From Tulasnella sp. 424 (taxonomy: Eukaryota > Basidiomycota > Agaricomycetes > Cantharellales > Tulasnellaceae): DNA of 64,000 nucleotides. Below, piece by piece: positions 7,373-50,253 of the stretch; position 1 is the stretch's first letter; each line of letters begins with the position of its first letter. The translations under genes were made by a program, and so were the position numbers. Below the pieces are notes generated by a model, which saw only the letters and a program-made list of their open reading frames with translations, did no database searches and was not told the DNA's origin. The stretch lies in assembly GCA_019633425.1 (NCBI GenBank), contig WSUB01000104.1, positions 84,396-148,395 of the forward strand, in the 5' to 3' direction.

Positions 7373-9874
7373 TCATTCCCAAAAGCGCTTGATAACCCTC
7401 CTGGCAAATGAAACAGGTTGTTTCTGCTTGGGTTCCGTAGAATCGGTGACCGGAGGATTCTCCGGGTTTGATATGGTAGGTGTGGGAGTAATGGATGATT
7501 CAACGACTGCAGCCGAGCTTGCACCTGGAGTCGGAGCTAGTGGGGTTGGGTTCGTCGAAGGGGAATCCATTACCAAGCTCATGGCTTCAACTTTATCGAC
7601 ACATTGCAGAGCATCAGGCCGTTGACCAGGCTCAAAGCTCCAGCACATCCTCATCAAGTCCAGTGTGGCAGAGGGTAGCGATGATGTGTCTGATGGTTCC
7701 GGCGTCCTGCGCTGATCTTCGGGCGCACATATTAAAAGCAGCACTTGGATATCAGTCCGAAGTTCATGATATGGAGGATTGCCGGTCATTATCTGTCATG
7801 TTTGCTTCCTTGGTTACCAACCGACGGCAGCAAATCTTAAAGTCTCGAGGTACTCGCCTCCAGAACAAGACAACCCCAGGCCCACATGTCACTTGGGCAA
7901 TCCGGTAGATTTCCGTCCAACAATTCCAGGCTGGTGTATCTGATGGGGCCTTTGAAACCGTTGCTGGTGCTTAGTCCTGTCGTTTCGTCTTCCACTGCCC
8001 TAGCGAGGTCGAGGTCGCAAAGCAGAGCCTCGCCTGCGTTTGTGACGAGCACGCTTCGCTGTTTTCGCCGCAAGATCGAATAGAAGGGATCAGCTCGAGT
8101 TAGTTCTGGTAGGACAGTGGGATGAGACTTCACAACCCATGCAGAGCTCCGAATGTAGCGAGGAGATTGGGTTGCGGTCTGGTGGTTGGAGGTGGACATA
8201 CCGATTTCAGGTCTCCGTGCACGATAGGTGGTTCTCTTGTGTGAAGATATGCGAGACCCTTGATGGTACCCAGGACCTAATACAGCATTCTTCATCATAT
8301 TGCAATACTACCACCAAAAAGTGGTCAGTTGGGTTTGACTTACCAACTTCAGCCGATGTTCTTGGGATGGTGCCTCTCGGGATAGGTAATCTTTTATATT
8401 CCCATTGGCCATGTACGGAGATATCATGTAGACTTCTCTAAAGTCCTCGCTGTTATAATATCCAGTGAGCTCGAGGATATTAGCGTGTTTGCACGACGCC
8501 CAGAGTTCGATCTCCCTTGCCAGTCTCTGAAAAAGAGTAGGAATCAACGGTCACCGTCTGTAACGAGCAAGAAACCCCGGACTAACAACAGCAATCCCCA
8601 ACGGCACTCCATCAAAATTCTCTGTATGCAATATCTTCACTGCGACGGTGGTCAGGGTATTGCCAGCCGGGAACCCGGTCTCCGTGGACAGGTCTGCCAG
8701 CTTCACTCTTCCGAACCCTCCACCGCCGAGCGTCTGTTCACGAATCCTAAGCCGGTGCTTCGGAATATAATAATCCGACAGGGACTGAAATATCTTGTTC
8801 ATGTGTGAAGATTCCAAACTAATGGCCCCAGGAGCCGGCGAATCTTGGCGGGACGGGACTGGACTGTTGGAACGGCTATTCCTGGAACCCGACTTAGAGC
8901 GAAGCCATGAGCTAGGGCTAAGTCCGCAGAAGTCATGAACATTTATGCGGATTTACTTACCCCCAATGATCGAAGTGGCATCGGAAAGTCGCGTAAAGAC
9001 CGGGGAGGTGAATGTGCGTCCGTTCGGCTAGGTTCCCAACCCATCATTATCCTTTCGATGTCTTGCTTACGCGAGTTCTAGTTGTATGGCACATCAATTC
9101 AGACTATTTTAACACGTGTAGGAGGAGTAGCACCCTCTTACGTCTTTTAGCTCTAGCAGCTTGGCTGCTGTTCGCTCCACTTCTTTGGCCAGCTCCAAAC
9201 TGCAACGTAGAGAGAATTCAAAAACAAAGAGAGCACGTGGAATATAATAATTACATACTTGCTTCCACCATTCCATATATCATGGGCTATCATGCCGACC
9301 CAAAGATGGTCGTCAACGCGAGCAACATCTTCTAGAGCTTTTTCCCAGTCGTTGGGAGGCTGATACAAAGGTGTAGTTTAGAGTCCTGACCTGCAAGCTA
9401 GCGGAAAATTCGATGACCTACGTTGAACTCGGGTGCATGAGCTTCAACCAACAAGTCATGCAATTTGTCTCGGCGCACTCCCCAGGTTGCCTTCGATTCC
9501 TCAGTATATGACGTAGGTAGTGTAGCTTCTTGCTCGATTAGACTTCGCGCCTCCATCAGTATACTGTCGGAACGTTTAGAAACGTCATCTCGCGGAATTT
9601 TCTCGTAATCTCCAAAGTTGACTTACAGTTCAAGCTTTCTCACCGATTCCATTGCCACGATCATTTCATAGAAGTCGGAGGGCCCGGGCTCGGAGAATGG
9701 TGTGCGCAGTGCCTGCAGGATTTCGACACCACGCGAAACAAGGTGAAGTATCTTTTGCGTGTTTCGGGGCGATGAAGAAGCTGTCTGGATTATAGACTTC
9801 AAAAGTTCAGCCGTATGTTCAAGTGGCGGTGGAATATCTTCGAGTATGTCATAGACAGCATCTTCAGTCTCCAT
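7373..9874 (-). CDS. H-domain pseudokinase with L-type C-terminal tail
   Basis: Ten exons (9874-9627, 9563-9422, 9359-9259, 9199-9142, 9065-8961, 8892-8587, 8526-8344, 8276-8202, 8058-7858, 7792-7373) give 612 aa. Residues 1-185 are helical and align with H2/H3 (motif LVSRGVEIL; later WEKALEDVARVDD), with the same intron phases at the first three junctions. A Ser-rich linker leads to a kinase domain (about 260-540) with GGGGFGRV, VAVK (K304), a helix-C Glu and HGDLKS. The catalytic-loop Asn is Ser408, DFG reads DLD (421-423), and APE reads SLE. Catalysis is therefore doubtful and a pseudokinase is the better reading. The last 45 residues match the tails of L1 and L3 and end SFARRVIKRFWE. The intron before IMTGNPPYHEL is GC-AG. 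The layout recalls MLKL, but that is analogy. Confidence 0.8.
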
Positions 9875-9908
9875 GCTTCTCGATGGCGGGGTTCACAGTG
9901 TAAAGTGG

Positions 9909-9915
9909 ATTTATA
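9909..9915 (-). promoter_or_regulatory. TATA box of the pseudokinase gene
   Basis: On the minus strand it reads TATAAAT, 35 bp before the ATG at 9874, inside the 173-bp intergenic shared with the divergent L0 gene. Confidence 0.5.
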
Positions 9916-10047
9916 GCTGTGGTAGAAACTGACTCCGGCTTTTATCGATCCGTGTGAAGGGGGTGAGGCTAACGCGCGCTCAGCCACCACTGATGAGGCT
10001 AAGCGTCGTCTCAACCATCGTCTCTCTTGCCCATAACTCCACTCATA

Positions 10048-11454: not shown

Positions 11455-11598
11455 ACCTGTCATCTCTGTCGCGGTAATAATTAAATGGTTATTCTTTTGG
11501 GTGAACCGAAGATTGCATGTCAGGCCATCTGGGATTAACCGCCGTGCCTTCCGATGACGCATTCAAAGCATGGAATTCTAGACCCAAGACTACTGACA

Positions 11599-12365
11599 CT
11601 AGACCCACAATACGACTATGGGTACTCCAGCAACTACAGTGGCGATTAAAGATGCCCATACAATAGGCATAGCTTCATGGAGCCATATATACATAATTAA
11701 TTGAACAAGAACGCACAGGCTCCCTAAAAGCAGACAGTAGAAAGCTTTGGCCATCGTTCGTCGGTTAGATTTCAGGAGTAAACCAGGCCACGTTGAAAGG
11801 GCAGAACCTACAATGATACATCAACCAGCGAACCTGCCCTTTAACACCGTACGTCCTCATCAGCGCATTGGGTCCTTCGAGTGTCCAGTCGTCGGGTGGG
11901 TTTGTGCCCTTTACCGCGTTCCGGTACGCTATACGTCCGATGGCATCGATGATCTTAAGAGAGCTCACAATTGATCCGACGTTGAGAATCAGAGCCACAT
12001 ATGCGAGACCCAGGACCGCGTTTTGGTACGCCGAACTAGAAAACCGTAAAGGGGGGTGGCCGTCCGGATCCGGCGTTTTGGATAGGGTGATGATGCTTGC
12101 CTCCATTGCTGCAAATAACGCCGCCTTGGGGTCCGAACGGCATTCAGGTACTGCATTGCACCATCGATAGAGCATCAACCGAGCACTCTTACCACCACGG
12201 CAATAGCTTGATACGAGGATATCCAACCTTGCCTAAGATAGTCCACGAGCTTCGGATGTTCATCTAATAAGCCGTGACATTAGACGGGAGCCGCAGATTC
12301 ATGGGCATCATGCGAAACGTACAGTTAATGGTCAAGGATGGAGTACTGTCTGCCATTGAGTCCAT
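11599..12365 (-). CDS. TM0: four-TM cassette membrane protein
   Basis: Exons 12365-12323, 12263-12193, 12124-11812 and 11744-11599 give 190 aa. The intron phases 1, 0, 1 are the same as in TM2. Hydrophobic segments lie around AIAVVAALFAAMEASIITL, VLGLAYVALILNVGSIVSSL, the stretch after the third junction (LLLGSLCVLVQLIMYIWL) and the C-terminus (ASLIATVVAGVPIVVLWV). The family motif S.LRMIDxLGK appears here as SLKIIDAIGR. The last exon is 146 nt, against 149 nt in the other members. It is convergent with L0, as TM2 and TM3 are with L2 and L3. Function is unknown; a small integral membrane protein is all the sequence shows. Confidence 0.75.
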
Positions 12366-13182
12366 CTCACTAGACATGTAAGTCGGTTATTCAATAGGGA
12401 GGTAGAAGATTAGGTGGTTGGGAGACCAGTCGCCGAGATCCATCAATGAACGTTTCCCTGCAGGATAAGGACACGTGTTTCCCGAGCTGTCGTCTGGAGG
12501 CTCCGGTCGAACTGAGAAATGAACTAGGTCAGCCATAGTATGGAGCTCTCGCCAAATCTGAGATTCGGCGCTCTCAAGTGAGTCTGACGCAACAAAGAGT
12601 CTTCCGTTGAAGACTTGTCTCCACTAGTTGGTGCGGAAGAATGTTTCGATAATGACGGAGGGTTGCTGTGGCGCTCTTAACTGTTGTTTCCCGCGGTTCG
12701 AGTTACATCAGTGATATCGGCACACTCCGCAAGCCGCAAGGTTTCGATCCTGAACCGGCTTCCATCATCTCCCTCGTTCCTCACCTTGGACTTGAACAGC
12801 GGAAGGACAATCATGGTTAGGAATTCGTCTTAGAGACGGCAGTAAATCACACCAATGAATGGTGTAAAATAATCTGATGAGATGGACGTCATATGGGTAG
12901 AACGGAACAAACAGAAAGGCACCTGCCATGTTTCCCGACCAAACATGCTGATTAATATTTCTCCCCTTGCGGGCCGCGAGGTTTCGATATAAGTAACGTT
13001 AAATCGTACAGCAAATAAAGTCATCCTATATCCGTGTGGGAATGAGAAATGAGAGTCGAGGCCTTTCTCTTCTATAATTAGTAGAGAACTGAAGAGAATG
13101 TTCGACATGGCCTGAATGGCCTTTAACACAGCCCATCACGACCGCCATTCTGCGGCCTCTGCGGTAACAAGGGGTGATATTG
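12366..13182. other. Intergenic, nothing recognised
   Basis: No open frame with family features, no terminal repeats and no clear RNA gene were seen between TM0 and duplication copy B. Confidence 0.5.
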
Positions 13183-15067
13183 CTACTAAACGGAGAGCAA
13201 AAGACCGTAATATTACTTCGACGAACGAGAGACGAAACTATGATTAAGTACTAGCCAGGCTCCATACGAGTGCCCGAACAACGAGAGAGGAGAGGTATAC
13301 TCTGACACGAAGCACCGAGATAATTAATTATACACAACGAAAGTAGGGAGGGGGGAAGAGCGGTGATGGATATATAGTGAATGGAAAGTCTGGGGGAGGG
13401 GAAATCATAAGCGAGCTACGAAGTCTGGTAGGAAAAGGTGGACAGTGGAAGCGAACGCAAAGGAGGCACGCGAAAGGAAAGAAGGGAGGAACCCACAGAG
13501 CTGAACCGAGTGTACAAGTGCACAAAAGAGCACCCACTCACATTCCTCACTCTGCGTTCCTCCCCAACATCACATCAGCGGCCCCGCTATCCAACGTCCT
13601 CGCCCAACTCCCAGCTCTAGGTCTCCCGATGCTGCTCCCAAACCCAGGAGAAAGAGACCCTACCCTTGCACCCATGTCCATCCCGACAGAGTCGATCGTC
13701 GAGGCGTGGCTTCGTTGCGCGACGGTTCGTTTCGGCGGCGTCGCGAGGTCCATCACGGATCCTGCACGAGATCGCGTGTGGCGATAGTCGAGTCCCCCTG
13801 TGATGCCGTCGAATTCTCAATACGCCGGTTGATGTTGTAATTGCGGCCGGGTGAGCGTACTCGGCAGGCGCAAGAACGTCCTCCCCTTGATGGTGGTACT
13901 GGTGGTGCGGCGGTGCAAAGCCAGCTGACGGTGGTCCCTGCTCCAAATCATCCACCCCTCCCGGAACCCCATCAAATCCCGCATGTTCCACCTAGACCGG
14001 AGGAGTGTGGAACTAAACAGGCGTTACGAGCTGCTAGTAGACCTGCCCCGCCAGCTCCTTGACCTTGCAAGTCCGAATGGGAAGCCAACGTCTCGACTCG
14101 CGCCGGAGTCATACGTGCGATGGAGGAGTGGAGTTTGCCGCTGCCGCTGGGGTCGAGGAGCATTGCTTTGTGGGAGAGAATAGAGAGAGGGCGTACGGAT
14201 AGGGTCGGGAGATTCGCGGTGATGAAAGTTTTGTCCTCTGCGATAGATGATGCTAGTAGCATTCCTTCCTCTTCCTCGGGTTCCAGCTCCTGAACAGCCG
14301 GGGCCCCGGGTTCGGGTCCTGCAGGTGGTCCGACAGGAGGCGTCGGTAGGACAGCAGGGAACGAGAACGCATAGACAGCAGCCGCTTCCTCCTGCTCCGC
14401 CGACTCCCTTTCCTCCCTCCCGAGGTCCTCGTTCGTGACTTCAGGTTCAAAGTTGGCTCGCATCAAGTCCAAGGTCTTCCTCCTCCGCTCTTCCTCCGTT
14501 ACGCGCAACACGAGGTCGGAGCTCTCGAGGGCCGCCGCGTTCGATAGCATCCTGGTCCTCCTCTCTCCTTCCCTCGGTCTACCATCTTCTTCTTCGTCCG
14601 ACGATTCGGGTAGGGTGATGGTTTGCCGAACGGGTACCATCCAACATCTGCATCGATCGTCGACTGTTCATACTCAAGTTCCTCCCCACAACTCCCCAAG
14701 CGTCCCTCTGCTTCTTCTTCCATTTCCCTCTCCCCCTTTTCTTCTTCCCCCTACTCCCTCCTTCGTTCGAATGAAGCGACACGGCGTCGACGTCCTCGTC
14801 TGATAACGCCGATGTGAGCGGCCCCTCGGGTTCATCGCGAGCCTGCCTCCGGATGCCTCGGGACCGGTTGACGACGATGACGATGACGGTCCCTGTTGAA
14901 GGTCCCTCTCATCGTCCGATTCTGACGTGGACTTTGAGCATAAGCAGGCATTGAAGGCCGCCTAGACGCCGTTAGTGTCATGGGTCATGGTCAGGAGTAT
15001 CATAGTCCGGACATTTTTGGTGGTTGGTTGCTTCCAGGAGTAGCGAGTAGCGTGAGTGCTGGAGGGC
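13183..15067. repeat. Segmental duplication copy B
   Basis: It starts with the same sequence as copies A and C (CTACTAAACGGAGAGCAAAAG) and ends in the upstream part of the protein gene (GGAGTAGCGAGTAGCGTGAGTGCTGGAGGGCG). It lacks the HIR1 exon. It shares with copy C the loss of the Pro-rich middle found in copy A. Confidence 0.8.
13547..14981 (-). pseudogene. Decayed copy B of the 678-aa low-complexity protein gene
   Basis: Fragments of the paralog are spread over several frames: KKQRDAWGVVGRNLSMNSR in one, the coiled-coil part (LDLMRANFEPEVTNEDL) in another, and the C-terminal SSIGRPRAGS in a third. An early stop interrupts the N-terminus, and a middle part is deleted. No continuous product is possible. 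Confidence 0.8.
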
Positions 15068-18327: not shown

Positions 18328-20080
18328 TCACCACCCTATCCGCCTGAAACCCCTCCTGACAAGTTGTTTCTGCTCGGGTTTCGTAGAATCGACGACAGAA
18401 GGATGCTCCGGGTTTGATATGGTGGATGTGGGAGTAACGGAGGATTCACCGACTGTGGTCGAGCTTGCGCTTGGACTCGGAGTTAGTGTGTTTCGGTTCG
18501 TCGGGGGAGGAACCTGTGGCGGACGTGCAGGCAGGCGACCCCCAGGATCGTGATGGACTTGGTAGGGAGTAGGCGGTTCCATCTCTTCTGAGGCGGCGGA
18601 GTAATGCGATTCTGTAGGGCTGGGGCTCCGAGTGTCGTCGGGACTATGCTCTACCGCCTCTGACGGCTGAGCGCCAACAACTGGAGTGGGATGACTCGGA
18701 GGTAGTGCTGATGGAGGTTGAGGCTCAGAAACTAAAGCCGGAGAGCCGAGGAGCCGTGCGTCATCCGCAAGAGAACTTGAGGAGATAGTGCCTGGAGGAG
18801 AGGAGAAGCCAGAAGATACAGTGATAGGATCTGTTTGGAGGGTGTGATTTGACGAAGGTAGCGGAATAATGGGTGGCGAACCCATTTCCTTTAGAAACGA
18901 AGTGATAAGCGAAGGCCTCAATCAAAGAGACGGAGCACTACCTCGGATGTAATCGACAGGAAACGGGTTTGGATGAAGGTATTTTGGGCCCGGTCAATGC
19001 TCTCAATGATTTCTCGCCTTTCCATAATGAACTTGAAGGCTTCGGCAAGTATCAATGGGTTCTCTATATCTGATATTCCTTATTAGATAACGGAACCTCG
19101 ATTATAAAACCCTCATACCGAACAGGAAGGGTTCCGTTAGCGCTCGCCGAGCTCGTACCACGACTGCCACTGCTGCTGTTCTAACCCTGGTGTTGACAAG
19201 TTGGAGACTAGTCGCGTCTTTAACGGCGGCTAACTTTGCGGATTTTTCTATCATGTTCCACTCTGAGTCAGCCGATACCTCGTAGAGGATAGCCCCAAAC
19301 GTTATATCCAGTTTCTTGGACTTCGGTTGACGCTGCCCAGAAACGCACGGAAAGTTGAAATTGGAAGCTGCATATCGGATAATATCATGAATATTGCTGA
19401 TCATAGCGAGGTCGGGAACCACTGCTCATCGGGAATCGTCTTAGCACGTATTCTCCGCAAGCCGATCCGCACGTACCGCATCGAATTTCGCTGCAAGGTG
19501 TGTCCAACCAGGTTCGTGTTTGCGACCAGACCTTGACCTGAATAGGAATTTTAGCCGTTACTCTCCCGCAAGGGCTTAAAGCTTGAGGTATCGGGATGTC
19601 ATCCAAGTTCTCTCCGACTCTGCCCTCTCGTAGTTTCTTCGTCTCTTGCCACGCTTTCGCAACTTGGCTTGAAGCTGTTCTCGGATCGGGCTAAATAAAA
19701 ACCGGCCTTTTCAGTGATTGGTGAAATATGTAGGCTCCGGAAAAGTACGAACGTCGAGGCCAGCTGCGTATTCCTTCAACTTGCTCACGGCCTCTTCGAC
19801 TGGACCGGTTTGGGGATCCTTCATGACATCATGAACTAGGGTGTCCAGTCTGTTTATTCGATTAGCGAGAGTTCGAGCTGCAAACAATACATGAATCTCA
19901 CCTTTGTGGAATCCGGTCGTGCTTCGAGTCCAACAATACCACCAAGTAGCAGAGCTCGACAAGGATGTCTCGGTTTGCCTTGGATTCTATCACTAAATAG
20001 TTTTTGCCGAGGAACCTTAAAACTGTTTCTGGATCGCATACGGCGATGTTGCCAGGGCTCATCTTCCACTGTTCTGCCAT
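18328..20080 (-). CDS. L1: cassette L protein with Ser/Pro tail
   Basis: Exons 20080-19902, 19849-19753, 19690-19477, 19421-19119, 19069-18942 and 18888-18328 give 493 aa, with intron phases 2, 0, 1, 1, 0. The head (1-307) is helical: DPETVLRFLGKNYLVIESKAN near the start, a DPR-type element at the third exon, then NIHDIIRYAASNFNF and SLQLVNTRVRTAAVAVVVRA. The fifth exon (DIENPLILAEAFKF) is also helical. The tail is Ser/Pro rich and unstructured, and ends ISNPEHPSV followed by VRRGFRRIGW. No known domain is recognised. Exon sizes 179, 97, 214, 303 and 128 are identical to L3. Its TM neighbour is dead and no H gene follows, so this cassette may be non-functional even though L1 itself is intact. 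Confidence 0.8.
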
Positions 20081-22325: not shown

Positions 22326-24830
22326 TCAATATCCCATTCCATTCAAATCTTCACCCCGCCAGTGACACCATCGCAACTCGGGGTCCCGGTTCCCTATCTG
22401 GGACACGATTCGAAGTAGCATGGTAAGCACAACAAATTCCACTCAAGAGTGAAAGCAATCACCTTGATCCTCCGATTGACCGCGGCCTTGAAGCCTCTAA
22501 ACAGCTTATCAAGCTCGTTTACTTCCGATACCTCGCGCTTGAGTAGGCTACGCCCACTCGGATCACACGTCATTGCTTGAAGCTGTCGTAAGATTGGGGT
22601 GAACAAATATACCAAATTGAGGTCATCTTCGTTTGAGGAAATTGTCAGCGACCCAGAAGGTGCCGCCAAGTTGGAGAACAGGCGAATCAGCTGGTCCAAG
22701 GTACGCAGCGAATGGCTAACAGAACCAATTGGGGCTCAGCGCACAACATCGATTTCAGTCCTTTCATACTGGAACTCACTTGTCCCCGTAATATAAATCG
22801 CTCCTTTCAGGTGCCGAGGCCAAAACGCTAATTAACTCTCTGCGAAGGCTTCGTCCGACCTCCATAAAATTGCTGGGCGAATCTTTGGCTCGCATAAACG
22901 TTTCGGAGAGACGCAACAGCCTTGCTACTGGGATTCCCCGACTTTCCACGCTGTCGACAGCTGCCTTGCCGGCAAACTTGAATATGGGAACGAGATATTG
23001 TTTCAGGATATCTCGGCTTTCTCGCGTAAGATCACAATCCCTGCATTTGACCATCGCTCTCTCAAGGTCCACAAGGGCTTTCATAGGATCTCTGCAACTT
23101 CCGAGTTAGAAATGGATCAGTTTTCAAACATAAGCTTAAAAGAACTAACCCGAGGTATACGTCACGCATGGCCTCTCGTATTTCATCGCGAGAGGCACTA
23201 GAATGGTCTAGCTTTGGGTATTCGACGATGACTTTGAGGACGACAGATATGCATTTCCAAGTGGGATTAAGTAGCAAATCCATACTGGAGGGGGATGGGA
23301 GGCAATCGATCCCTGGCGATCCACGATATCCGAACAAGCAATCGAACGCCACGCAACTCAAATACGCGCTGATCATATTTGGGTGCGAATTTTGGACTAG
23401 GTCTGATGGAGGGAGCATCCTTCGCTGCTCTGAACCCTCGGCTGAATGACGTATCAGATCGTAAGTACGTTCCCTGTGGTCCTCTGAAGAGGAAAGGAGA
23501 ACGTGTGCCAATGCCGCCCGATACAAACATTGAATCGCCGTAGCCAACTCCACCTGGTCACGGCCTCGAAGCTGGAGAGTTCGGTTGTACGAATTTCTCC
23601 ACAGTTCCGAGAGACGATTGGTAAATTCATCGTTGGCAGCAAGTATGTCCAAGACTTGCAAATCACTAATGGCGAGAATGTTTGAGACGCCATGCAACAG
23701 GGTTAGGGCATCATCCGATGTACATATGGCCCGTTTGATTGCAAAAGTCTGCAATTTCCCGGGGTCTTCTTCTTGCCTCTTGCCTGTACTGATCTGGGAT
23801 GCAGAACGGACTATAGAAGCGGGGGTTTCTGACAGTAGAGAGCCGTGGCCAAAGGTGTACTCCCTGAACCAGCATCCGATTACCCTCCCGAGTAGCCGCT
23901 TGACCCGAATCATTAATAGACAAGCAGCAAAAATGAGCAAAATCAGACTTACAAAAACCTGTTTTGCAAGCAGAATAAAGCCGCGCCATATCTGATCGAC
24001 AGACCAGGTAATTAGGCGTGATAGAGGGCTTTGGAACGGACAGAATTTGTCACAAGTTGCCAAAAGCGCAGTAATAATCAAAATTGCCAGCCCCGCGCAC
24101 ATAAACGTCCCGACAACGTTCGACAGCGTGGGGTGAAGTATGTTGAGATAAATAGTGAGCGAAATGCAGAAGATGATCAGGCCAGTCTGCAAAACAGAAG
24201 GTAAGAAGTTGTCGAGAGCCCATTCAAGGCCCCATTCTTCGGCTCCTAAGAAGCGTTTGAGCTGCTCCCACCTCTGACGGTCAGGCCCACCACCAGTTCG
24301 TTTGCGGTAGTAGACGAGCCATTGCCGCCCCAAGACCGCCATGAACGAAGATATCAATGCGAGCGTCAAGCTCAACGAGAACAGGACATTGACGGTAATG
24401 ATATTGCCGGCGGGTGAGAAATTCTCGGAAGGGAGAGCTTTGGCGCTTGGAAGACTGTCGTTCCTACCCAATGCTAGTTGGAGGAGAATTGCATTGTTCT
24501 CTCGGAGGAGCGCGTTAGTGTCGTCTGCTGGGTCGGGACTCATGAGAGGAAGCGTGAGCGCGAGAAAGGCGGAATTGACTCCGGCGAAGAGACCGGCCTA
24601 TAACGCATCAGCAAGTCTCCGAGTGTTGAGCGGTGATGGGGGAAAGGGCTCACAAAGATAAGAAGCCCATCAAGCTGCTCCTTGAGCCCATTAACCATAT
24701 CGTCGTCTATTTCTTCTGCGAGGGCATCGTAGCAGCGGTAGAACTTGCCGCCGTCCTGGCCGAATTCGTTGGGAGGGACAGGGACCTCGAGGACGCCTGG
24801 GTTGTAAATGTCGAAAGCTGGAGTGGTCAT
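22326..24830 (-). CDS. DUF6535-type multi-pass membrane protein
   Basis: Exons 24830-24654, 24597-23953, 23898-23150, 23091-22780, 22715-22463 and 22397-22326 give 735 aa. The N-terminal half has the order I know from DUF6535 proteins of Agaricomycetes: a cytosolic lead (CYDALAEEIDDDMVNGLKEQ), a membrane segment LLIFAGLFAGVNSAFLALTL, an LRENN loop, LFSLSLTLALISSFMAVLGRQW followed by a Tyr/Arg motif, then two further hydrophobic segments (LQTGLIIFCISLTIYLNIL and TFMCAGLAILIITALL). The C-terminal 450 residues are helical and probably cytosolic. The 54-nt intron at 23899-23952 is in frame; if retained it would add a hydrophobic stretch. The alternative upstream TTG is not used; the ATG at 24830 is chosen. 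Function is unknown in this family. Confidence 0.85.
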
Positions 24831-31654: not shown

Positions 31655-32436
31655 ATGGCATCTTACAACTCTCCAATACAAAGACAAATGGCGAGACCTG
31701 CTCATGGTCCGTAACCCCAACTTTGTTGTCTCTGGCTGGATTTGTTCAATATACCCTTATTTATTTATTTTCAGGAAACTACCAGTTGCCTCCTCTGGTT
31801 GGTGTAACACGAGAGGGCATGATTAGCTCCTTCGGTTCGATAGCGGTCGTTGTGAGTACAACCATACGTAAACGCTCACGTGACGCTAAGAGTTCGCTAG
31901 GCAACGCTCCTCGCCGTAACGGAAGCCATCTTCCTCTCGCTCATAAAGGTATTGCCAAACCAGCTATCAATCGATTTTCCTGGGTCGCAGCTTCAAAGAA
32001 CGACCGCGGCCCTGACATATACTGGCATTGTGCTCAATCTGGGGTCTCTCTGGAGCGCCCTCCGCATGATCGACGTTCTCGGCAAGATGCCCCTTCTCAA
32101 CGCCAAATACGAGGCAGAGTTGGACGCAAAACGTCTTTCCTTAAGGTTAGATAACGAGACGTCCGCTCAGGATGTGATGGCTTCATACGGTCTCCGCGGA
32201 ATTTGGACGTTCATGGCATGGCACTGTAAGCGCTACAGTATACGACACAACGCCAGTTGCATATCTAATTGCAGTTACACAACTTAGGTCTGATATCGCT
32301 CCTGTTCGGCAGTCTATGCATAGTGGCTCAAATAGCTATGTTTGTTTGGTTGTACGAGTCCTTGGCGGTTTCTATTTCGATAACGGTCTTGGTAGGCTTT
32401 GCATCCGTTCCTATGCTTCTCAGTTTCGTCATGTAA
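31655..32436 (+). CDS. TM2: four-TM cassette membrane protein
   Basis: Exons 31655-31706, 31775-31851, 31901-32225 and 32288-32436 give 200 aa, with intron phases 1, 0, 1. Hydrophobic segments lie at about 33-57, 76-98, 152-174 and 178-199. The cytosolic loop after the second segment carries the family motif WSALRMIDVLGKMP, and a second conserved spot is GIWTFMAWHC before the third segment. The N-terminus has no signal peptide. The stop is 149 bp from that of L2, which converges on it. No known domain is recognised; position and conservation tie it to L2 and H2. Confidence 0.85.
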
Positions 32437-36468: not shown

Positions 36469-38513
36469 ATGAGTTTCGCGCAGGTCTCACACCTTCCCAA
36501 TTCCACATCACCATGGAAAGTGCCCGAAGTAGATGGTGGTCTTAAACTTACGTCCAAACTTCTGGGCAATGTTCTTGACTTGGGTGTGCAGTCTCCAAAC
36601 CACTCGTTGAAGGCGCAACATCTCCTATCCAGGGGCATAGAAATCCTGATATCGGTCCAACACTACCTTCAGAGCGGAGAAAAGGACCTGCTTGGAGCCC
36701 TTCAGACATTGAACGATCTTCAAGCAACGGAAAAGTTGGTAATAACCTCGCTTTATTACTAGCGCCTGTAGACCTAATAGTCCTCTGCAGTGTCCTTACA
36801 GAGTCCATCGTAATTCTCCACGACGACGTGAAGGAGGCAGAGTCTCTCCCCTGCGATCGGGCAGTAATGTCGTCATGGCATCTGAATCGGAATACCTTTA
36901 CCGCGAAACTCGAAGAGCTGGCCGATACCAGACAGTCCAAGGTTCGCTTGCTTCCGGATTTGTCAGTCTGCATCCTTAAATGACGATGAGCACGTTCTAG
37001 AAAGATAAAAACCGATGGTCGGCAGTAATGAAAGATGTTGTGCGAGCGGATGATCTGAGCTTCGTCACCCGTCTGTCCGAAGACGTAGAGAAGAACTGCC
37101 AAGACGATAAGTGAGTTAACCATACAGGAGCGTATAATCCGTACCCTGGTATTTATTGAACCTCTATCGTCGCTAGGGCCAAGGATGCTGTGAAAAGCAT
37201 CGTTGCATCACTCGATAGTGCGCCAACTGAAGCGGACGAGGTGAGCTATTAGACCGGCGGCGCGGTGAAAACAAAAGGACGAAATCTCATACCATTGGAC
37301 ATGACCAGAAAACTCGAACGGATTCTATTCTGGGGATAATGTGCTTAGCGGATGAAGCAAATCGTCCAATGGGCGCTGGTATGGACAGTGTGGTTCGGTG
37401 AGTTGAAAAGTTGCTCGGCTTCCCAGGAGGAAACCTCTGATCCATTTCACGTGAAGAGTGGTCGGCGACATGGCAGAACGGCTGAAACAGCCCGATAAAG
37501 AAAAGTGGAAGTCTATTTCTGAACGACTGCATGGCTTACCTGTCTGTCGGAAGGTGTGGATACACACCTAGGATTTGGATTTTGACTAACGTCGCTGGAA
37601 AAGGTCGAAAAGCCTCTCTTAATACACGAGGGAAGGTATACCATACCAGCGGTTATTGAGGATGCCCAAGCGGAGGTTCTTTCAGCTGGTGCATCGATCG
37701 GAGGTTAGTGAGAGCGCTACGTGACTCGTCGCGAATCCCATTTGACGCTGAACCTGCTTGCTCTTGGCACAGAAATAGTGCCTTTGGATATCAGCGATCC
37801 GACCGTTCGGATCGACGAGGAGCTCATTGCAAAGGCTAAGAAGTACGTTGAGCAAATTGGGAAAGCGATGGCCGAAGGAACTAGGAATTTGGAGGCTCTT
37901 TCAAAGAAGAAGTCCTTCACGGAGGTGGTAGGCGAGAAGAACTACAATCAAATTTCATACGCTGCGGTGCATCTGTTTGGAGTAAGGAACTCCAGATAGT
38001 GATCAGGCCGCACAGAATATCCTTGCTAACCTCGAGCTCGTGTCCATAGAATATTGCTATGGCACTTACACCCGCCGTCGAAGTCTCTGCGCTCAGGGAG
38101 CCGGTAAATCTTGTAACGTTAGTATGCTCCTGGTTGCGCGTCTGCCTTTCCAAAACTTCTAACTCGCTTCCACGTCCAGCGCATCTGTCTCCAAGTTTAT
38201 CAACGCCTTAACTGCATTCAAGAAGAGTCCTGGTGAAAAATGGAAAGCAACGCTATTGCGCAGTCTAGAAAATACCGTAAAGGTTTTGACGGCTTTCGGG
38301 GAAGAAGCTAAGAACGAGGCTGTGACGAAAGCCGCGGCTGGAGGTGTAAATCAGGAAGGGGGTGCGGAAAGTGGTGCGGGGAGTCTGGAGACTGATCCAA
38401 CTCAACCTGCCACAGAGGAGCCAAAGAGTCCGGTTCCTCTATCGGAGACCGGAAATACTCAACCTTCCCCAACGGGTTCCGGAAGTGAGACGCCTACTAC
38501 CGGGGGCACTTAA
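36469..38513 (+). CDS. H2: all-helical cassette protein
   Basis: Ten exons (36469-36734, 36791-36941, 37001-37110, 37177-37240, 37309-37397, 37457-37553, 37604-37703, 37773-37981, 38050-38117, 38180-38513) give 495 aa. All junctions have the same phases as in H3. The N-terminal domain has HSLKAQHLLSRGIEIL, SWHLNRNTFTAKLEEL and MKDVVRADDLSFVTRL, and is shared with the pseudokinase. A middle part (DSILGIMCLADEANRP, VEKPLLIHEGRY) and a long helix (ELIAKAKKYVEQIGKAMAEG) follow. The last 55 residues are acidic, Ser/Pro/Thr-rich and disordered. There is no signal peptide and no clear TM segment, so it is probably cytosolic. A HeLo/MLKL-NTD-like four-helix fold for the first domain is a guess from helix spacing only. 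Confidence 0.85.
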
Positions 38514-40468: not shown

Positions 40469-41319
40469 ATGACTACAACACAGACCAACTTGGTAGCTCA
40501 AATGCAGTCTACTCAGATTCCCTGTGGAGTCGTGGGTCATAGGAGGGGTGAGTCCTCTAAGCGACTTTCCGTGCACCACGTGCAAACTCAGTCCTGACGC
40601 TGATCACCCTCAAAGACAGAAACGAACCACTCACTCCCGTTATAGATGCTACCAAAAATGGGCTGGTCACCTCATTTACTACAATCGCTGTTGTGGTGGG
40701 TAATTTGTGGTCGAATCAGTATCCTTAGGACTCGCTTGTTCAGGTATAATTATTACTATGATAGGCGACCCTTCTCGCTTCTATTGAAGGGGTCTTCCTC
40801 TCAATAATCAAAGCACAGTCCTCTTCACAGCCTTCTTCGGGACAGCCTCAACCTGAGGAGCCAAACCTCAATCAAATGAAAATGAAGATAATGGTCTCTC
40901 TGACGTACCTTGCCATCCTCTCCAATATTGGCGCTTCATGGAGTGCTCTGAGAATGATTGACATTCTCGGAAAGATGACCTTCTATGTTGCCAAGCGCAA
41001 TTCGACTTGTACTATAGAAGAAGGGGGGTCGTTCCAACTGGAAAAAGTCGGCAGCGTTGATGAGGCGATGAGGCTACATGGGGTAGCTGGAATTTGGTGC
41101 TTTTTCTCGTGGCACTGTAAGTTTTTGAAGCAAGAGTAAGCCGTATCAATCTGATGCCCATTTCAATTAGGCTGTATTTCGCTCTTCATCGGCAGCCTTT
41201 GCGTTGTCGCACAGATTTTACTATATGTTTGGATTGACGAAGCTCCAAGCGTCTCCATCGCGATGACGGTGCTGGCTTGTGCTGCTTCGATACCTATTTT
41301 CTATAGCCTAATTCATTAA
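40469..41319 (+). CDS. TM4: stand-alone member of the cassette TM family
   Basis: Exons 40469-40547, 40646-40695, 40765-41116 and 41171-41319 give 209 aa, with the same phases (1, 0, 1) and the same 149-nt last exon as TM2 and TM3. The segments are TTIAVVATLLASIEGVFLSI, SLTYLAILSNIGASWSAL with the motif LRMIDILGKM, ISLFIGSLCVVAQILLYVWI, and a C-terminal AMTVLACAASIPIFYSLI. A hydrophilic Gln/Pro/Ser insert lies between segments 1 and 2. No L or H gene adjoins it; its nearest neighbours are its own dead duplicate and the complete TM3-L3-H3 cassette. Confidence 0.85.
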
Positions 41320-42029: not shown

Positions 42030-42103
42030 CTATTGGAAACCTTCACTTTCTCGGAGAACCCCGAGAAACTCCCCAAGGGGTTTCGCCCTGGGTTTCCAAA
42101 TAG
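42030..42103. other. Nested foldback element
   Basis: Outer arms TATTGGAAACC and GGTTTCCAAATA enclose a perfect inner stem, TTTCTCGG (42047-42054) with CCGAGAAA (42061-42068), and a small CCCCAAGGGG palindrome. It could be a tiny non-autonomous foldback or an RNA hairpin; no coding capacity. Confidence 0.5.
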
Positions 42104-42949
42104 TTTGATCCACTAATGTAACGCGCGACAGGCTGACTTAATGGATGAGCCCTTGCATGATATTACACTAGCCATCATTTAGTGAGTTAAATACTCTTAT
42201 TGTTTATGAAGTAAGATGATCGGAGGTTACGATTCCTCGCTTCCGGTCGTGGCCGTCTGTGGTTCCAAAAAAATGTAGATCCGACCAGGTTAATTAAGAG
42301 CCCTAACACGGGGTGGTGCGAGTGTGGGCCTAGGGCCACTCTATAAAAGACGTAGAACGTTAAGGTGAGAGTAGAACACTCCCAGCCTCCTGGCCAATGC
42401 AGCTGAGGCCTTGCGGCGAACGCGATCGATCATGTTCTCCACACAATTCCGACAGTACTGCACTACGAGTGATAAACAACTCTGGCTCACTAACCGCTTT
42501 ATCAGTATAACCCTTTTATGCACAAATTTCTATTCCAACGCTCGAGGAAGAGAACGAATGCAGCGGCTCGTCGGGTGCCTTCATTAGGCGCTAGTGGTGG
42601 ACAGGAGGATAACCATGAGATCAATGCAACGTGCTCCCTCCTGCGCCCGGTGCGATCGAACGACCGGTTGCCTACCCAGCACGTGATCAAGGTGAGCATA
42701 GCCTATCATTATCAGCGCAGAGCCCTCCCCAACGCTCTTTGAAAGAAGTGAGCATGAGCGCCGCATAATATTTTCTTGGAACTCTGAGAAAATTTCCTTC
42801 CTCACATCGAAGAAGCTTTCGTTCGGTATATAGCTCGCACAACGACCTGCCAAATCACTCCAGATATCATCTGTAAAGTCTTCATGTCGTGTGGTAACCA
42901 ACCTCAGACTCCACCTTCCTTCCCTGACTGTCGTTTATCGGCAAGCTGA

Positions 42950-43560
42950 GCCTTTGATCTGACCATCCGATTCGCTTGGAACAATCTATGAAGAAGAGGA
43001 CGTATCGGAGCTCCTCAAAGTCATCGGTGCCACAAAAAATGGAATGATTAGCTCGTTTACCACAATGGCTGCTGTGGTTGGTATCGTTGTCATCCAACCA
43101 TTCTCCGCACTAATAACCTCCCCTTCTCTCGTAGGCGACTCTGCTCGCGTCCATCGAAGGCGTCTTCCTCTCAATAATCAAATCCTCAGAAGGATCTTCA
43201 CTCAATGGGTCATTGCGAAGGAGATTGATGGTCGCTCTGACGTACTTGGTCATCGGGGCGTCATGGAGTACCCTCAGAATGATTGATAAGTACTCTGGGG
43301 AAAATAACTTTCCAAGTGGCCAAACACAAAACGACCAATATCAAAGTGAAAGAAAAGTGGATTTATTCAAGCCGAATGATTTCAAGAGCATTGCGAAGCG
43401 ATGAGTGGATACGGGCTATGATGCGAAGCTAACCCTCGTTGCGGATCGTCATGGTGAAAGCGGTGGGTCAGCGCTAGGCTGTTCCAAAAGTTATATTTCA
43501 ACTGGGAAGGGTTGTGGAGTTAGTGGTGAGAAGCTTCTTAAGCCACCGGATGTTTGACGA
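42950..43560 (+). pseudogene. TM family pseudogene (second tandem unit)
   Basis: The exon starting GCCACAAAAAATGGAATGATTAG and the next exon (ACTCTGCTCGCGTCCATCG) are preserved. A deletion then removes part of segment 2, leaving TYLVIGASWSTLRMID, and the frame is lost at KYSGENNFPSG. The third and fourth segments cannot be read. Confidence 0.75.
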
Positions 43561-44404: not shown

Positions 44405-45310
44405 ATGTCGGCCAGCCCAAAGACAGAGTCCCCTCAAGATGACCGCGGTATATGTGCGTACCTGATCTTTTGCCTCATTTCACCCAAATTCATTCGATCA
44501 AAAAAGCCGAATACGCTTTTCCCTCCGTTATCTATACCAGCCCAACGACAAAGTCCACTCAAGATGACCGCGATTTATGTGCGTACCTGATTGTTGGCCT
44601 CATTTTACCCAAATTCATTCGATCCAATAAGCAAAATACGCTCTTCCCTCCATAATTGGTACAACGCGAGATGGCATGGTGAACTCATTCTCAGCGGTGG
44701 CCGTTGTCGTAAGACTCCTAGTTCTCTGCGAAAGAATTCGAGGAGGACCTCTGATGCTCTAAACCTTCTAGGCAACCTTGTTGGCCAGCATCGAATGTGC
44801 ATTTCTTTCCATCATTAAAAACCCTCCCAACAATTCGCCTCTCCGTTACTCAAGTCAAGCGCTCCAGGACACAGTCGTTACTTTGACATATATTGCAATC
44901 TTCCTCAATGTTGGAGCATCATGGAGTGCTCTGCGAGTGATTGACTTGCTGGGCAAAATGCCCTTCCTAAACGCGTGCCACGAGGCAGGCTTGAAGCAAA
45001 GGAACCCAGAGGGTAATCGTAAATTCACGATGACCTCTGACACTACAGTTACGGAAGCTATGGAATCTCACGGGTTTCGTGGACAATGGGCGTTTGTCGC
45101 GTGGCATTGTAGGTGCTACGAGCCCTGCGGTCGGGATGATGTTGACTTTGACTCATTGCAGGCCTAGGATCGGTTTTCATTGGAGCTTTATGTGTCGTCA
45201 TTCAAATATCCATGTACATATGGATGCACGAAAAATTAGTTGTTTCGATTGTGACAACTGGCTTTGCCGTCTTCGCGTCTATTCCCATTTTCATTACTTT
45301 TTTCACGTAG
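44405..45310 (+). CDS. TM3: four-TM cassette membrane protein with duplicated 5' exon
   Basis: Exons 44405-44447, 44507-44578, 44632-44708, 44772-45108 and 45162-45310 give 225 aa. The core is typical: SFSAVAVVATLLASIECAFL, TLTYIAIFLNVGASWSAL with the motif LRVIDLLGKMP, then GSVFIGALCVVIQISMYIWM and a hydrophobic end. The 5' part is unusual: exon 1 plus its intron is duplicated, giving one exon more than its paralogs. The first donor could also be GTGCGT 6 nt downstream (in frame). The stop is 183 bp from the L3 stop (convergent). The start choice is supported only by the open frame and the duplication. Confidence 0.75.
44408..44645 (+). repeat. Tandem duplication of exon 1 and intron 1 in TM3
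   Basis: Two units of about 120 bp share CTCAAGATGACCGCG, CCCAAATTCATTCGATC and TACGCT, then CTTCCCTCC or TTTTCCCTCC. In unit 2 the first GT after GACCGCG is AT, so splicing must use the downstream GTGCGT. Confidence 0.75.
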
Positions 45311-45493
45311 GTCGATTTGTACTTATAGCGTCTTTATCGATGATTATGCTATGTTTGAGATCATCGAAAGCAGCTTTCGCAGAATTCTGAGACCCTAGCG
45401 ACAACAATGACTACTCGACGAATGCGAGCTCCTGATTCAAAGGACCCACGACATGAAAACAAGTAGTATGACGAAGAACAAAAAAGAATGCCG

Positions 45494-47441
45494 TCACCAT
45501 CCTATCCGTCTGAGAACTCTCCTGACAAATGAAGTGGGTGGTTTCGGCTCGGGTTTTGAAGAATTGGCAACAGAAGGGTTGTCCGGGTTTGATATGGTCG
45601 GTATGGGAGTAACGGAGGATTCAACGACTGCGGGCGAGCTTGCACCTGAAGTCTGAGCTGATGGGAGTGGGTTCGTCGGAGTAAACTGTGGTGGACGTCC
45701 AGGGAGGCGACCCGGAGGATCGCGATGCACTTGGTGGGTAGCAGGAGGTTTGATCTCTTCTCGGGCGTCGGAGTAATGCGACTCTGTAGGGCTGGGGCTG
45801 GGAGTGTCGTTGCCACTATTTTCTATTGGTTCAGACGACGGAGCGTCAACAACTTCGGTGGGATGAGGTAGTGCTGAAGGAAGTTGAGGCCCAGAAACTA
45901 CAGCAGGAGGGCTGGGCAGCCGTGCCTTTGCGGCAAGAGAACTCGAGGAGATAGTGCTCGGCGGAGAGGGGATGCCAGAAGGTACTGCTGTAGGATTTGT
46001 CCCGAGGCTGCGATTTGACGAAGGCTGAGGCATAACGGACGGAGCGTCAACAACTTCGGTGGGATGAAGTAGTGCTGAAGGAGGTTGAGGCCTAGAAAAT
46101 ACAGCAGGAGAATTGGGCAGCCGTCCCTTTGCGGTAAGAGAACTCGGGGAGATAGTGCTCGGCGGAGCGGGGATGCCAGAAGGTACCGCCGTAGGATTTG
46201 CCTCGAGGCTGCGATTTGAGAAAGGCTGAGGCATAACAATTGGCGGATCCATCCCCTTTAGCAGCGGGGCGGTAAGCGAAGGCCGCAATGAAAAAAAGGG
46301 AACCTTACTTCGGATGTAATTGACAAGAATCGGGTTCGGATGAAGGTGTTTTGGGCCTGAGCAATGCTCTCAACGATCTCCCGCCTTCCCATAATGGCTT
46401 TGAAAGTTTCGACAAGGTTCAACGGTTTCTCTATATCTGAAATCCATGATGAGACGGCTGAACATCGATTATAAAACCCTCATACCGAATACGAAGGGTT
46501 CCGATAGCGCTTGCCGAGCTCGCACCACAACTGCTACCGCTGCTGTTTTCAACTTCGTGTTAACAAGTTGGAGACAATGTGTGTCTTTAACGGTCGCCAA
46601 CTTTGTGGATTTTTCTATCATGTTCCACACTGGTGCAGGCGATCCCACGTAGAGCATAGCCTGAGTAGTTATATCCAATTTCTTGGACTTCAGTTGACGC
46701 TGCCCACGCACGTACGGAAAGTTGAAGCCGGTAGCCGCATATCGGATAATATTATGAACATTACCAATCATAGCGAGGTCAGGAACCGCTGCGAGTCGGG
46801 AATCGTCTTAGCATGGATTCTCTGCATCCCGATCCGCACATACCGCATCGAATCTCGCTGTAAGGTGTGTCCAATTTGCCTTGCGTTTGAGACCAAACTT
46901 TGACCTGAATTGGAATATTTCCCTTGAACTCCCCGTTGGGACTTGAACCTTGGGATGTTGGCTTGTGATCCAAGTCATAAGCGACTTTGCCATCTCGGAG
47001 TTCCTTAGTCTTCCGCCATGCTTTTGCAACGTCGGTTGAGCCTTCTCTTGGGTCGTGCTAAATAACAGCGATTTCAGCGATTGATGAATATCTAAGATTC
47101 GGGAAGCTACGAACTTCAAGACTTCTTGCATAGCGCTTCAACTCCGTCACCGCCTTTTGGACTTGACCGCCTTGGGGATTATTCATGACATTAGTGACAA
47201 GGTTGTTCAGTCTGTTTATCCGATTAGCGAAATTCCATGCTTCAACAATAAATGAGTCTCACTCCGGTGAAATCGTCTTGTTCTTCAAGTCTAACAAGAC
47301 CACCAAGTGGCAAAACTCGACAAGCTCGTCCCTGTTCGCCTTGGATTCAATCACCAGATAGTTCCTGGTGAGGAACCTTGCGACATCCTTTGGATCGCAT
47401 ATGGCGATGCCGCCAGCCGGCATCGTCCATGTGTCCGCCAT
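45494..47441 (-). CDS. L3: cassette L protein with duplicated Ser/Pro tail block
   Basis: Exons 47441-47263, 47211-47115, 47057-46844, 46788-46486, 46436-46309 and 46255-45494 give 560 aa, phases 2, 0, 1, 1, 0. The head of 307 aa has ICDPKDVARFLTRNYLVIES (about 14-33), NRDELVEFCHLVVLLD, HDPREGSTDVAKAWRKTKEL, NVHNIIRYAATGFNF and CLQLVNTKLKTAAVAVVV. The tail has a 66-aa block twice, then the conserved ESSVTP...ISNPDNPSV element and the end SFVRRVLRRIGW. No enzyme or known binding domain is visible. It is divergent from H3 (857 bp between starts) and convergent with TM3, the arrangement seen for L2. Confidence 0.85.
45838..46236 (-). repeat. Tandem duplication of about 198 bp in the L3 tail
   Basis: Two units share CGAGGCTGCGATTTG, TCGGCGGAG, GATGCCAGAAGGTAC and GTCAACAACTTCGGTGGGATG. 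They encode NPTAVPSGIPAPPSTIS and NPTAVPSGIPSPPSTIS blocks. L1 has only one such block. Confidence 0.8.
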
Positions 47442-48298
47442 GGTGGAAATGGGGAAGTGTGGTTTCTCTGCTGGTCGAGTTGTTGGGACCGGACTGTGTG
47501 GGTGCTTGAAATAACGTCGACAGCGTGTTCTCTGCAATCAACCTCCGTGTGCATCGCGAGGGGACGGTGTGCGGAAGGAGATAGACGCCGGCGTGGCCAA
47601 CTGAAGGTCCTCGACATCGTGGTTAGAAAAAGGAAAACGCGTGGTCGAACCGTGGGCATGTGCTTACCACGTGCATCCGTGGGATTTCCGTTTCAACTCA
47701 ACATGCCCTAACAAGCCTCTAGCTCGGTTCGTGCACATCCTCATCTACACAATTTCGTAATACGGAGGACCTTCAACTTTCCTAATTGGACGTATACACG
47801 GCATTCATTCTCTCACCGCCGGACCGCCAATCCTTCGACCCAATGAAGTTGGAAACAGAACCCCGGTGTGACCGCCAGGAACCGACGACGCAAGTCCTTC
47901 ACTACTCAAGCCTTGCCATCACTGTGCAAAGCCGCGCAGCGTGAATGTATAACCCGGCATGGCCTCCCTCGTGCTTTCGTCTATTCTACTATTAACCGCC
48001 TTCGGCCTCGAGTCTTTGGGGAGCTTCATCTGCGAGGCGATATTAATAATCCTGAACATTATCCCCACAAGGTAAGGCTGGGCTTAAGGGGCATCAGAAC
48101 ATTCTAATGCGAATGATATCCATGATAGCTTGCATTATCGTGCATAACCTGCGCAGCTATCCTCAAATTTCCACGAAAAAAGGCGCGGACGCAGCATGGG
48201 GAGGGACCCGCATCTATATCGCGCTTGTAGTTAAACTAGGCTCATACCTCACCACTCCTCGTATTTCAATCCTTTCACCATCCTCTCTTATCCCTTAA

Positions 48299-50253
48299 AT
48301 GGCGTCCATCAACGACCTTCCATCTCTGTGGCAGAAACAGGACGTCGGAGTTGGCTTGCAGTATACATCTAATCTCCTGAATACCATAGTGGGCCTCGCC
48401 ACCCAGTCACCTAACCATTCACTCAAAGCCCAACATTTACTCTCAAGAGGAATAGAGATCCTAGCGTCAATTCAACAATACCTTACCACTGGAACAGATG
48501 ACTTTCTTGGTGCAATCAGGACTATACAGTCACTTGAAGTGACAGAAACGTGAGTAACACGAGCACAGATGACAATACTCTCGCTTACATTGTCCAAAGA
48601 GTGCTTGTTGAATCCATAACGGTATTGAGTGAAGACGTGAACAATCCCGTTCCTGCAGACCGAGCCGTCTTGTCATCCTGGCACCTCAATCGCAACACTT
48701 TCTCTAACCAGCTTAGGACGCTATCCACTACCGGTCCGAAGGTAAAGTGATATGCATTGCGTCTTCTCGAGTTTAGTCTTTACTAACGTAACCCTTGTAG
48801 CAACCCGACGCGGCGTGGACTGGCGTCCTAAGAGATGTCGTCAGAGCGGATGACCTCAACTGGGCCACTCGCCTTGTGGAAGATATGGCCTTGGAAGACC
48901 AAAAGTAAGGCAAATGCGCCCGAGGGCATTCGCTCTTTACGAAAACTTGATTTTTATCTTTCAAAGTACTAAGCAGTCCCTCGGCACCATCATCACAACA
49001 CTCGAACAACCCGAAACTTCCGCGCCAGAAGAAGCAGAGGTATGAGGGCATCTATTTCTGTGTTCACAACGATAGGCTTGGGATTCATATCCGATAACAG
49101 AAAATCCAGACGGACTCGATCCTGGCGGTTATGTGCCTAGCCGATGAAGTCGCTCGACCATCTGAAAGAGGTCGAACCGAGGTGTTTCAGTAAGACGCCG
49201 GCTCTCCTATGACGTTACTCAAAGTAACCCTAATCATAACTGAAATAGGGTGGTCAATGATATAGCCGTAGAGTTGAAAAAGAATGAAGGACGAAACTGG
49301 AAATCCCTGTCGGACCGGTTGCATAGTCTGCCAGTTTGTCGTCAGGTAAACAGCTCCTTCCATGACCGTGCAAGACTGGTCATACCACTAAGGGCTCTCA
49401 TCAGGTTGAAAAGCCGCTGCTTGTTCACCAAGGAAGTTATCCAATCCCAGACATCGTCGGCGATGTTCAGGCAGAGGTGGATCTTGCTGGTACTCGTATT
49501 ATGGGTGAGACGTTTTTCGGGGTTTAATATTCGTCTTCCAATACCGACGACCGAGTCCTTTCAGATCTCATTCCGTTTGGCAGCAAAGACGCAGACATCA
49601 ACGAGTCGAAGCGCGAAGAAGCAAAGAAAAACCTCTGGCAAGTGGAGAAGGCAATGAAAGATGCAGCAGGACACTTGAAAGCACTCAAAGCGAGGGACCA
49701 TAGCTCGGTCAAGGGAGGAAGAACTGATAGCTGGATATCTTATGCTGCGGCACGCCTGCTTACTGTAAGCAAACGTGAGTTGGGGAAGGCGGTCACTAAT
49801 TCGTCTCACGGATTTAAAGAATACCGCACTCGCCATCACACCCGCCTCTGAAATTTCGACATTCATCGACCCTCTACATACCATCGTGTAGGATTTTCCC
49901 TCGTCGTTTTGGTCTACTCTCTGACGTAGTCTACCAGATCTGCCGTCTCCGGATTTATTGATGCTCTGGGCGTATTCAACCTTGGTCCGGCCCAGAGTTG
50001 GCAGGAAGCATTTACTCGCTCGTTAGGAGGAACCGCGTCCCTGTTGACGCAATTCGGAAGGTCGAACGTCAACATTGCTAGCCCAGTTGAAGCCACCTTT
50101 GCAGGCCAGTCCAGAGCTGGTTTCAACGTGCCCACGGGCTCTAGCACACCTGAGAGGACCAGCGTGAAAGAGGAGAAGCATGGTATCCGCGAAAAGATGG
50201 CAGACTTGGCGACTACCATGAAAGATAAGTTGCCAGGTGGGAAATCTAGTTAG
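48299..50253 (+). CDS. H3: all-helical cassette protein
   Basis: Ten exons (48299-48549, 48600-48741, 48801-48904, 48967-49039, 49101-49189, 49249-49345, 49405-49504, 49565-49764, 49820-49887, 49938-50253) give 479 aa with all phases as in H2. The N-terminal domain has HSLKAQHLLSRGIEIL, VLVESITVLSED, SWHLNRNTFSNQL and VLRDVVRADDLNWATRL. Further regions are DSILAVMCLADEVARP, WKSLSDRLHSLPVCR, VEKPLLVHQGSYPIP and the helix REEAKKNLWQVEKAMKDAA. The C-terminus is basic and helical (IREKMADLATTMKDKLPGGK), unlike the acidic end of H2. No signal peptide. Probably cytosolic, possibly peripheral at membranes through the end helix; this is inference. Confidence 0.85.

Follow-up and report, generated by a model that had tools for sequence, protein, structure and literature searches.

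A recurrent three-gene cassette encoding membrane, L and helical proteins in Tulasnella sp. 424

We analyzed a 64,000-nucleotide stretch of the genome of Tulasnella sp. 424, an orchid-associated (orchid-mycorrhizal) fungus. The stretch, called the window here, comprises bases 84396-148395 of contig C7 (genome 46.8 Mb, 448 contigs), and coordinates given without a contig name are window positions. The window carries three copies (cassettes 0, 2 and 3) of a unit made up of genes for a small membrane protein (TM), a helper-like protein (L) and a helical protein that is sometimes fused to a kinase (H), together with one remnant (cassette 1) consisting of a TM pseudogene and L1. Cassette 0 is inverted, and the place of H is taken there by K0, a fusion of an H domain and a kinase. 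The unit recurs with its gene order on three contigs and falls into two deep clades. This side-by-side recurrence in the same order and orientation suggests that the genes work as one unit. The reading we prefer, tentatively but as one that may quite possibly hold, is that of an old, repeatedly copied Tulasnella three-gene unit kept together as its products act together.

Architecture and recurrence of the cassette

Intron-exon models were built for the cassette genes of the window (Table 1). By protein comparison, H3 agrees in full with NCBI FRC04_000711 and H2 with FRC04_000709, and L3 and L1 depart from FRC04_000710 and FRC04_000702 in two residues at a single exon edge. The rebuilt models confirm, at matching positions, the two complete cassettes, the remnant and the inverted fourth copy that the original prediction had described from the letters alone. 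In all complete cassettes TM and L stand tail to tail and L and H are divergent. The stop-to-stop gap between TM and L is 144 (0), 149 (2) and 183 (3) bp in the window and 160 (B), 155 (C) and 160 (D) bp in the three complete cassettes found outside it; in the remnant it is 194 or 219 bp, depending on which stop is chosen; the original prediction had given 144-220 bp. The starts of L and H are 173 bp apart in cassette 0, 884 bp in cassette 2 and 857 bp in cassette 3. As had also been predicted, exon phases are kept within each family: intron phases are 2,0,1,1,0 in L1, L2 and L3 alike and 2,0,2,0,2,0,1,0,2 in H2 and H3, and the first four of K0 (2,0,2,0) are the same as in H. One intron of K0 (7793-7857) is of the GC-AG type. 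Exon 5 of L0 and of L3 has an equal start phase and a similar motif (DLDQP in L0, DIEKP in L3).

Whole-genome searches with single proteins gave matches for H2 and for L3 at C7 only, while TMb, a solitary intact TM of the window, matched C7 and, weakly, C212, C117, C323, C51, C184 and C92. At these loci, follow-up queries were profiles built from the window genes and their homologues, plus L0 and K0 of the window. With these window-derived queries, H-domain and L0-type matches were found adjoining the TMs on C212 and C117, which gave the complete cassettes B, C and D. Searches with K0, L0 and TM0 added an L-H pair (A) and a lone H domain (E); genome searches derived from C and D found no further L or H locus. 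Weak leads were an L-like match on C323 (E 0.01) and H-like matches on C1 (E 0.09) and at C212:160562 (E 0.49). Spliced alignment with L0 as the query scored 424 (A), 297 (B), 184 (C) and 176 (D), compared to 34-56 in cassette-free regions; census scores higher than those are partly self matches, since the queries included ones from the same locus. Since the same order and orientation are seen again on C212 and C117, outside the window, the adjacency is not a purely local one explained by recent duplication.

In the resulting census, eight L loci were found. A divergent H-domain gene lies on the 5′ side in seven of them (exception L1), which upholds the predicted divergence of L from H or the pseudokinase, and, again in 7/8, the 3′ neighbor is a TM in tail-to-tail position (exception A; a pseudogene at L1). 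Likewise, L is alongside in seven of the eight H-domain loci found (exception E). TM occurs at 17 loci including two pseudogenes, which are lower bounds; six of these loci are in complete cassettes and one, a pseudogene, is with L1.

Table 1. Features of the cassettes (window positions unless a contig is named; aa, amino acids)
Feature	Position or contig	Strand	Description
K0	7373..9874	-	616 aa, 10 exons, one GC-AG intron; H-type domain residues 1-194, kinase, L-type C-terminal tail
L0	10048..11454	+	375 aa, 5 exons, without basic tail
TM0	11599..12377	-	small multi-span membrane protein, 187 aa; annotated FRC04_000699, 154 aa
TM pseudogene next to L1	17458..18133 (start approximate)	+	fragments in several frames
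L1 (FRC04_000702)	18328..20080	-	493 aa, intact
TM2	31655..32436	+	200 aa
L2	32586..35584	-	910 aa, long repetitive Ser/Pro-rich tail, terminus KKVRRWVGI
H2 (FRC04_000709)	36469..38513	+	495 aa, 10 exons
TMb	40469..41319	+	219 aa; solitary intact TM
Degraded TM copy	about 42900..43430	+	
TM3	44405..45310	+	201 aa
L3 (FRC04_000710)	45494..47441	-	560 aa, 6 exons, tail terminus SFVRRVLRRIGW
H3 (FRC04_000711)	48299..50253	+	479 aa, 10 exons; all-helical by prediction
Cassette B	C212	TM +, L -, H +	
Cassettes C, D	C212 (C), C117 (D)	TM -, L +, H -	relative arrangement as in window
Pair A	C212	L -, H +	added by K0, L0 and TM0 searches
E	C335		H domain only; added by K0, L0 and TM0 searches

Age of the cassette and the case for joint function

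In the identity matrices, TM, L and H each fall into two groups, clade I (0, A-E) and clade II (1-3, TMb), with between-clade identities of 27-38% for TM, 12-21% for L and 17-24% for H. L0 is only 14-16% identical to L1-L3, and the gene order holds despite this divergence, as the original prediction had stated. In profile-profile comparison (hhalign), clade I matched clade II for TM (probability 100%, E 1.7e-38), for H (97.9%, 4.4e-13) and for L (89.7%, E 1.8e-6, 202 columns). Twelve other pairs were compared, one of which overlaps by construction; as controls, the 11 different-family pairs all gave E 0.0036 or worse, the lowest being TM of clade I against DUF6535. By these comparisons there are two old clades, each carrying complete cassettes, and since L identity between them is 12-21%, the cassettes are not merely the product of recent local duplication.

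Judged by their DNA, C and D are recent duplicates. The duplicated block (C212:172222-175551 and C117:6215-9527, 83%) spans the TM, L and H-domain exons and nearly coincides with the cassette, with one extra 240-column piece just past TM. A further match of 930 columns joins the solitary TM F to the TM of D; the H domain of E matches that of C over 833 columns (83%), and a piece of 168 columns (71%) upstream of E corresponds to DNA beside TM F. The ratio of nonsynonymous to synonymous substitution (dN/dS, by NG86) between C and D was 0.09 for TM, 0.44 for L and 0.38 for H. It was 0.41 for H of C and E, 0.45 for L1-L3 (first 305 codons) and 0.14 for TM2-TM3, the last with dS 3.4; dS was saturated for H2-H3 and TM3-TMb. 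TM is under purifying selection, and L and H evolve faster.

Relatives at E<=0.001 numbered 11 proteins for H, 8 for L and 18 for TM, including 2, 2 and 1 from this window, respectively. All source-named relatives are from Tulasnella and not from the Agaricomycetes at large, whose genomes the original prediction had suggested searching; this absence is limited in sensitivity for H and TM, because those searches scored only about 8000 candidates with the most shared words. Tulasnella calospora has an H (71% to H3) and two TMs (70% to TM3, 61% to TMb) on what we take to be one 42,650-bp contig, and L was not found there. In UAMH 9824, an H (59% to H2) and a TM (60% to TMb) have consecutive tags (FS837_004887/004888) on a 4,956-bp contig and are the same neighbors as H2 and TMb in the window, and the L contigs (4.2 and 3.4 kb) are too short to show linkage. 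None of six locus tags tested was named in any paper of the collection searched, and the cassette was not found among the matches listed for Tulasnella literature on cell death, comparative genomics and gene families or DUF6535.

Order, spacing and near unit-wise copying support joint function of the three genes. The prediction that their proteins work together gained from the recurrence, from the two old clades and from TM and H sharing a contig in two other Tulasnella, and it lost from the solitary TMs and broken cassettes. Several observations weigh against it. At ten of the 17 TM loci, neither an L nor an H belonging to that TM was detected within about 4.6 kb in either direction (the examined flanking DNA measured 3.4 to 4.6 kb, and a strongly diverged L or H in it could escape detection). 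Pair A has no TM in C212:141000-144290, E has neither L nor TM in C335 201500-205640, and L1 lacks an H, since none came up within 4.6 kb of the TM remnant. The homology of L between the clades rests on the profile-profile match at 17% identity, intron positions and place, and the clade II L profile missed L0 and the other clade I L genes (E<=1). In Tulasnella sp. 417, L lies on contigs of 23,833, 15,030 and 3,538 bp and H on one of 10,986 bp, none of which is shared, and the N-terminal part of the H3 structure model is weak (predicted local distance difference test, pLDDT, 34-72 in blocks over residues 1-140).

In addition, all copies could stem from one block with linkage kept by inertia, and fixed order alone is no proof of joint action because the copies may share one ancestral block. 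It is possible, if doubtful, that the genes are linked by descent only, one ancestral block having been copied often and unbroken while the functions of its genes are separate. The recent duplication of C and D and the internal relatedness of both clades fit this explanation, as do the solitary TMs and broken cassettes, which show that the linkage is dispensable. Yet the clades are old, and orientation and a gap of 144-183 bp are kept in all six complete cassettes; the C/D copy also ends near the cassette edges, and the H-type protein K0 has a tail in common with L proteins. A selfish cassette that spreads by copying itself, as a poison-antidote drive or mobile gene set would, is highly improbable. 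It would account for the multiple and patchy copies, the pseudogenes and the copying nearly as a unit to another contig, yet no transposase, terminal repeat or integration signature was noticed (no specific search was made), the copies are old, TM is under strong purifying selection and several species carry the families.

The three proteins and a possible signaling module

Apart from the kinase part, no Pfam family matched H, L or TM, and scans of H and L found no homeodomain. TM has about 187-219 residues in the window and three to four hydrophobic spans by hydropathy. We considered whether TM belongs to DUF6535 (PF20153), a fungal multi-span membrane protein family with at least 150 scored matches in this genome. 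This was rejected: six TM sequences scanned had no PF20153 match at E<=1, and hhalign against five DUF6535 sequences of this genome gave probabilities of 9.2% and 0.4%. One DUF6535 gene (E 5e-28) lies in the window at 23062-24597 (-). The first intron of TM3 is spanned by a 120-bp tandem duplication (44412-44531 and 44537-44656, 87%).

The structure model of L is of low confidence (mean pLDDT 38), with a helical N-terminal part and a sheet-containing middle. In clade II, L continues into a Ser/Pro-rich linker and then a basic tail (SFVRRVLRRIGW in L3, RRGFRRIGW in L1, KKVRRWVGI in L2), and similar tails end four of the six L relatives from other records (P0014, P0015, P0016, P0018). K0, unlike L0, has the L-type linker and tail, with 65% identity to L3 across 57 residues. 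At the DNA level, the K0 tail (7390-7560) shares 75-81% identity with those of L1 (18336-18506) and L3 (45511-45681), and a tail pattern search over the stretches analyzed found K0, L1 and L3 only, with a pattern that misses L2. These matches look like an exchange across gene types between neighboring cassettes, the simplest reading being that the last exon of K0 took its end from a neighboring L gene. The hydrophobic moments of seven tails lay at the 75th-96th percentile of shuffles, which is suggestive, and no more, of an amphipathic tail.

H is homologous to the first ~190 residues of K0 (26.6% identity, E 2e-18), and therefore H and the pseudokinase form one family with differing C-terminal halves. 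The kinase part of K0 matches PF07714 (PK_Tyr_Ser-Thr, E 2.6e-39) and PF00069 (E 2.1e-36). The motifs GGGGFGRV and VAVK are present, HGDLKSRS and DLD are degenerate, and the Lys of VAVK and both Asp residues are kept; compared to EGFR, RN is replaced by RS and DFG by DLD, and hence the catalytic-loop Asn and the DFG used as marks of an active kinase are absent. Because of HGDLKSRS and DLD, K0 is probably a pseudokinase. Downstream of the H domain, D has a kinase-like stretch with HGDIKPEN and DFG, and E has HGG, the gene models of both crossing an in-frame stop; C has only a weak kinase match, further downstream, and H of A and B runs on into low-complexity sequence. In pair A, the H domain is followed downstream by two tandem copies of a Thr/Ala/Pro/Lys repeat frame (C212:146950-150131). 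A second kinase-like gene of the window, with HGDIKPNN and DFG, lies outside the cassettes (59339-60195, +).

The AlphaFold2 model of H3 is all helical, mostly confident at residues about 141-400 and low over the last 70. Foldseek found no match at E<=0.001, and for residues 1-102, a low-confidence region of the model, the structural similarities listed were assorted helical bundles. None of seven H-domain sequences (from the eight loci, with D left out) matched Pfam HeLo, Goodbye or MLKL_N at E<=1; K0 had no Pfam match at E<=5 besides the kinase, and H3 had none. In genome searches, the sole MLKL_N match was sub-threshold and away from the cassettes (C139), and Goodbye gave no match at H domains in a search run without a positive control. 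These results bear on the proposal that the cassette is a necroptosis-like cell-death or allorecognition module, in which H would be a membrane-permeabilizing bundle, the kinase would restrain it as in MLKL, and L and TM would be regulator and receptor. K0 has the MLKL layout of a helical N-terminal domain and a degenerate kinase (PMC12881547), and L and H are paralogous, patchy and fast-evolving. We consider the proposal unlikely given the profile misses, the placement of the genome's sole MLKL_N match and the lack of a significant Foldseek match, and the analogy with MLKL is drawn solely from the layout of K0. The original suggestion of self/non-self recognition, stress or cell death found no supporting result here.

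Returning to the reading of a unit whose products act together, its layout could be that of a membrane-linked signaling module in which L and H form a fast-evolving pair and the C-terminus of H can be swapped. TM would be the membrane anchor or sensor, and L a cytosolic adaptor or regulator, probably co-expressed with H because the two are divergently placed. The H domain would take the input for an output protein, and the C-terminal half of that protein would be exchanged between copies: a helical region in H2 and H3, a kinase in K0 and probably in D and E, and low-complexity sequence in A and B. The tail of clade II L and K0, which is cationic and possibly amphipathic, may be a docking or membrane-binding signal and the part that moved between gene types. 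A membrane signal would then pass to L and on to the H-type output protein.

Between the cassettes of the window lie a minus-strand open frame of 688 codons and two partial, broken-looking copies (pieces 62-92% identical), at 4865-6931, 13342-14976 and 25239-26908, and a WD-repeat-like gene at 27440-30589 (+) by eye presumably resembles the histone chaperone HIRA/Hir1.

Comparison with known systems

That three orphan families keep a fixed order across deep divergence points to a joint function, one that sequence similarity by itself would miss. If this were a recognition or cell-death system, it would open a way to study somatic incompatibility in basidiomycetes, the current models of which are reported to be based on ascomycetes (PMC8229728). 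If there is only block inheritance, the cassette is still a clean case of duplication with exchange of C-terminal modules. It is somewhat unlikely, in our estimate, that the three orphan families (membrane protein, adaptor and helical output protein with exchangeable kinase, helical or low-complexity effector ends) form a new genus-specific signaling system, a diversifying cassette with which an orchid-mycorrhizal fungus would recognize self, partner or parasite. New here refers to the searches made, which returned no matching family or named system.

Like DUF6535, TM is multi-span, and unlike a member of that family its profile reaches the low probabilities given above. Basidiomycete HD1-HD2 mating-type genes are also a divergent pair multiplied as a unit, as L and H are, but the protein families are unrelated and H and L have no homeodomain. 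The fungal HeLo/HELL effector clusters described in PMC12881547 (het-S/nwd2, the two-gene HELLP/PNT1 and three-gene Chaetomium clusters) resemble the cassette in being small fungal gene clusters of a helical protein with partners. In contrast, no cassette family is a NOD-like receptor by Pfam, H has no HeLo, HELL, Goodbye or MLKL_N match, and the unit includes a membrane protein. With MLKL and basidiomycete BaMLKL (PMC9815663), K0 shares the layout of a helical domain at the N-terminus and, after it, a kinase domain whose motifs are degenerate, and it differs in lacking an MLKL_N match and in belonging to a family in which the C-termini of H2, H3, A and B are of other kinds.

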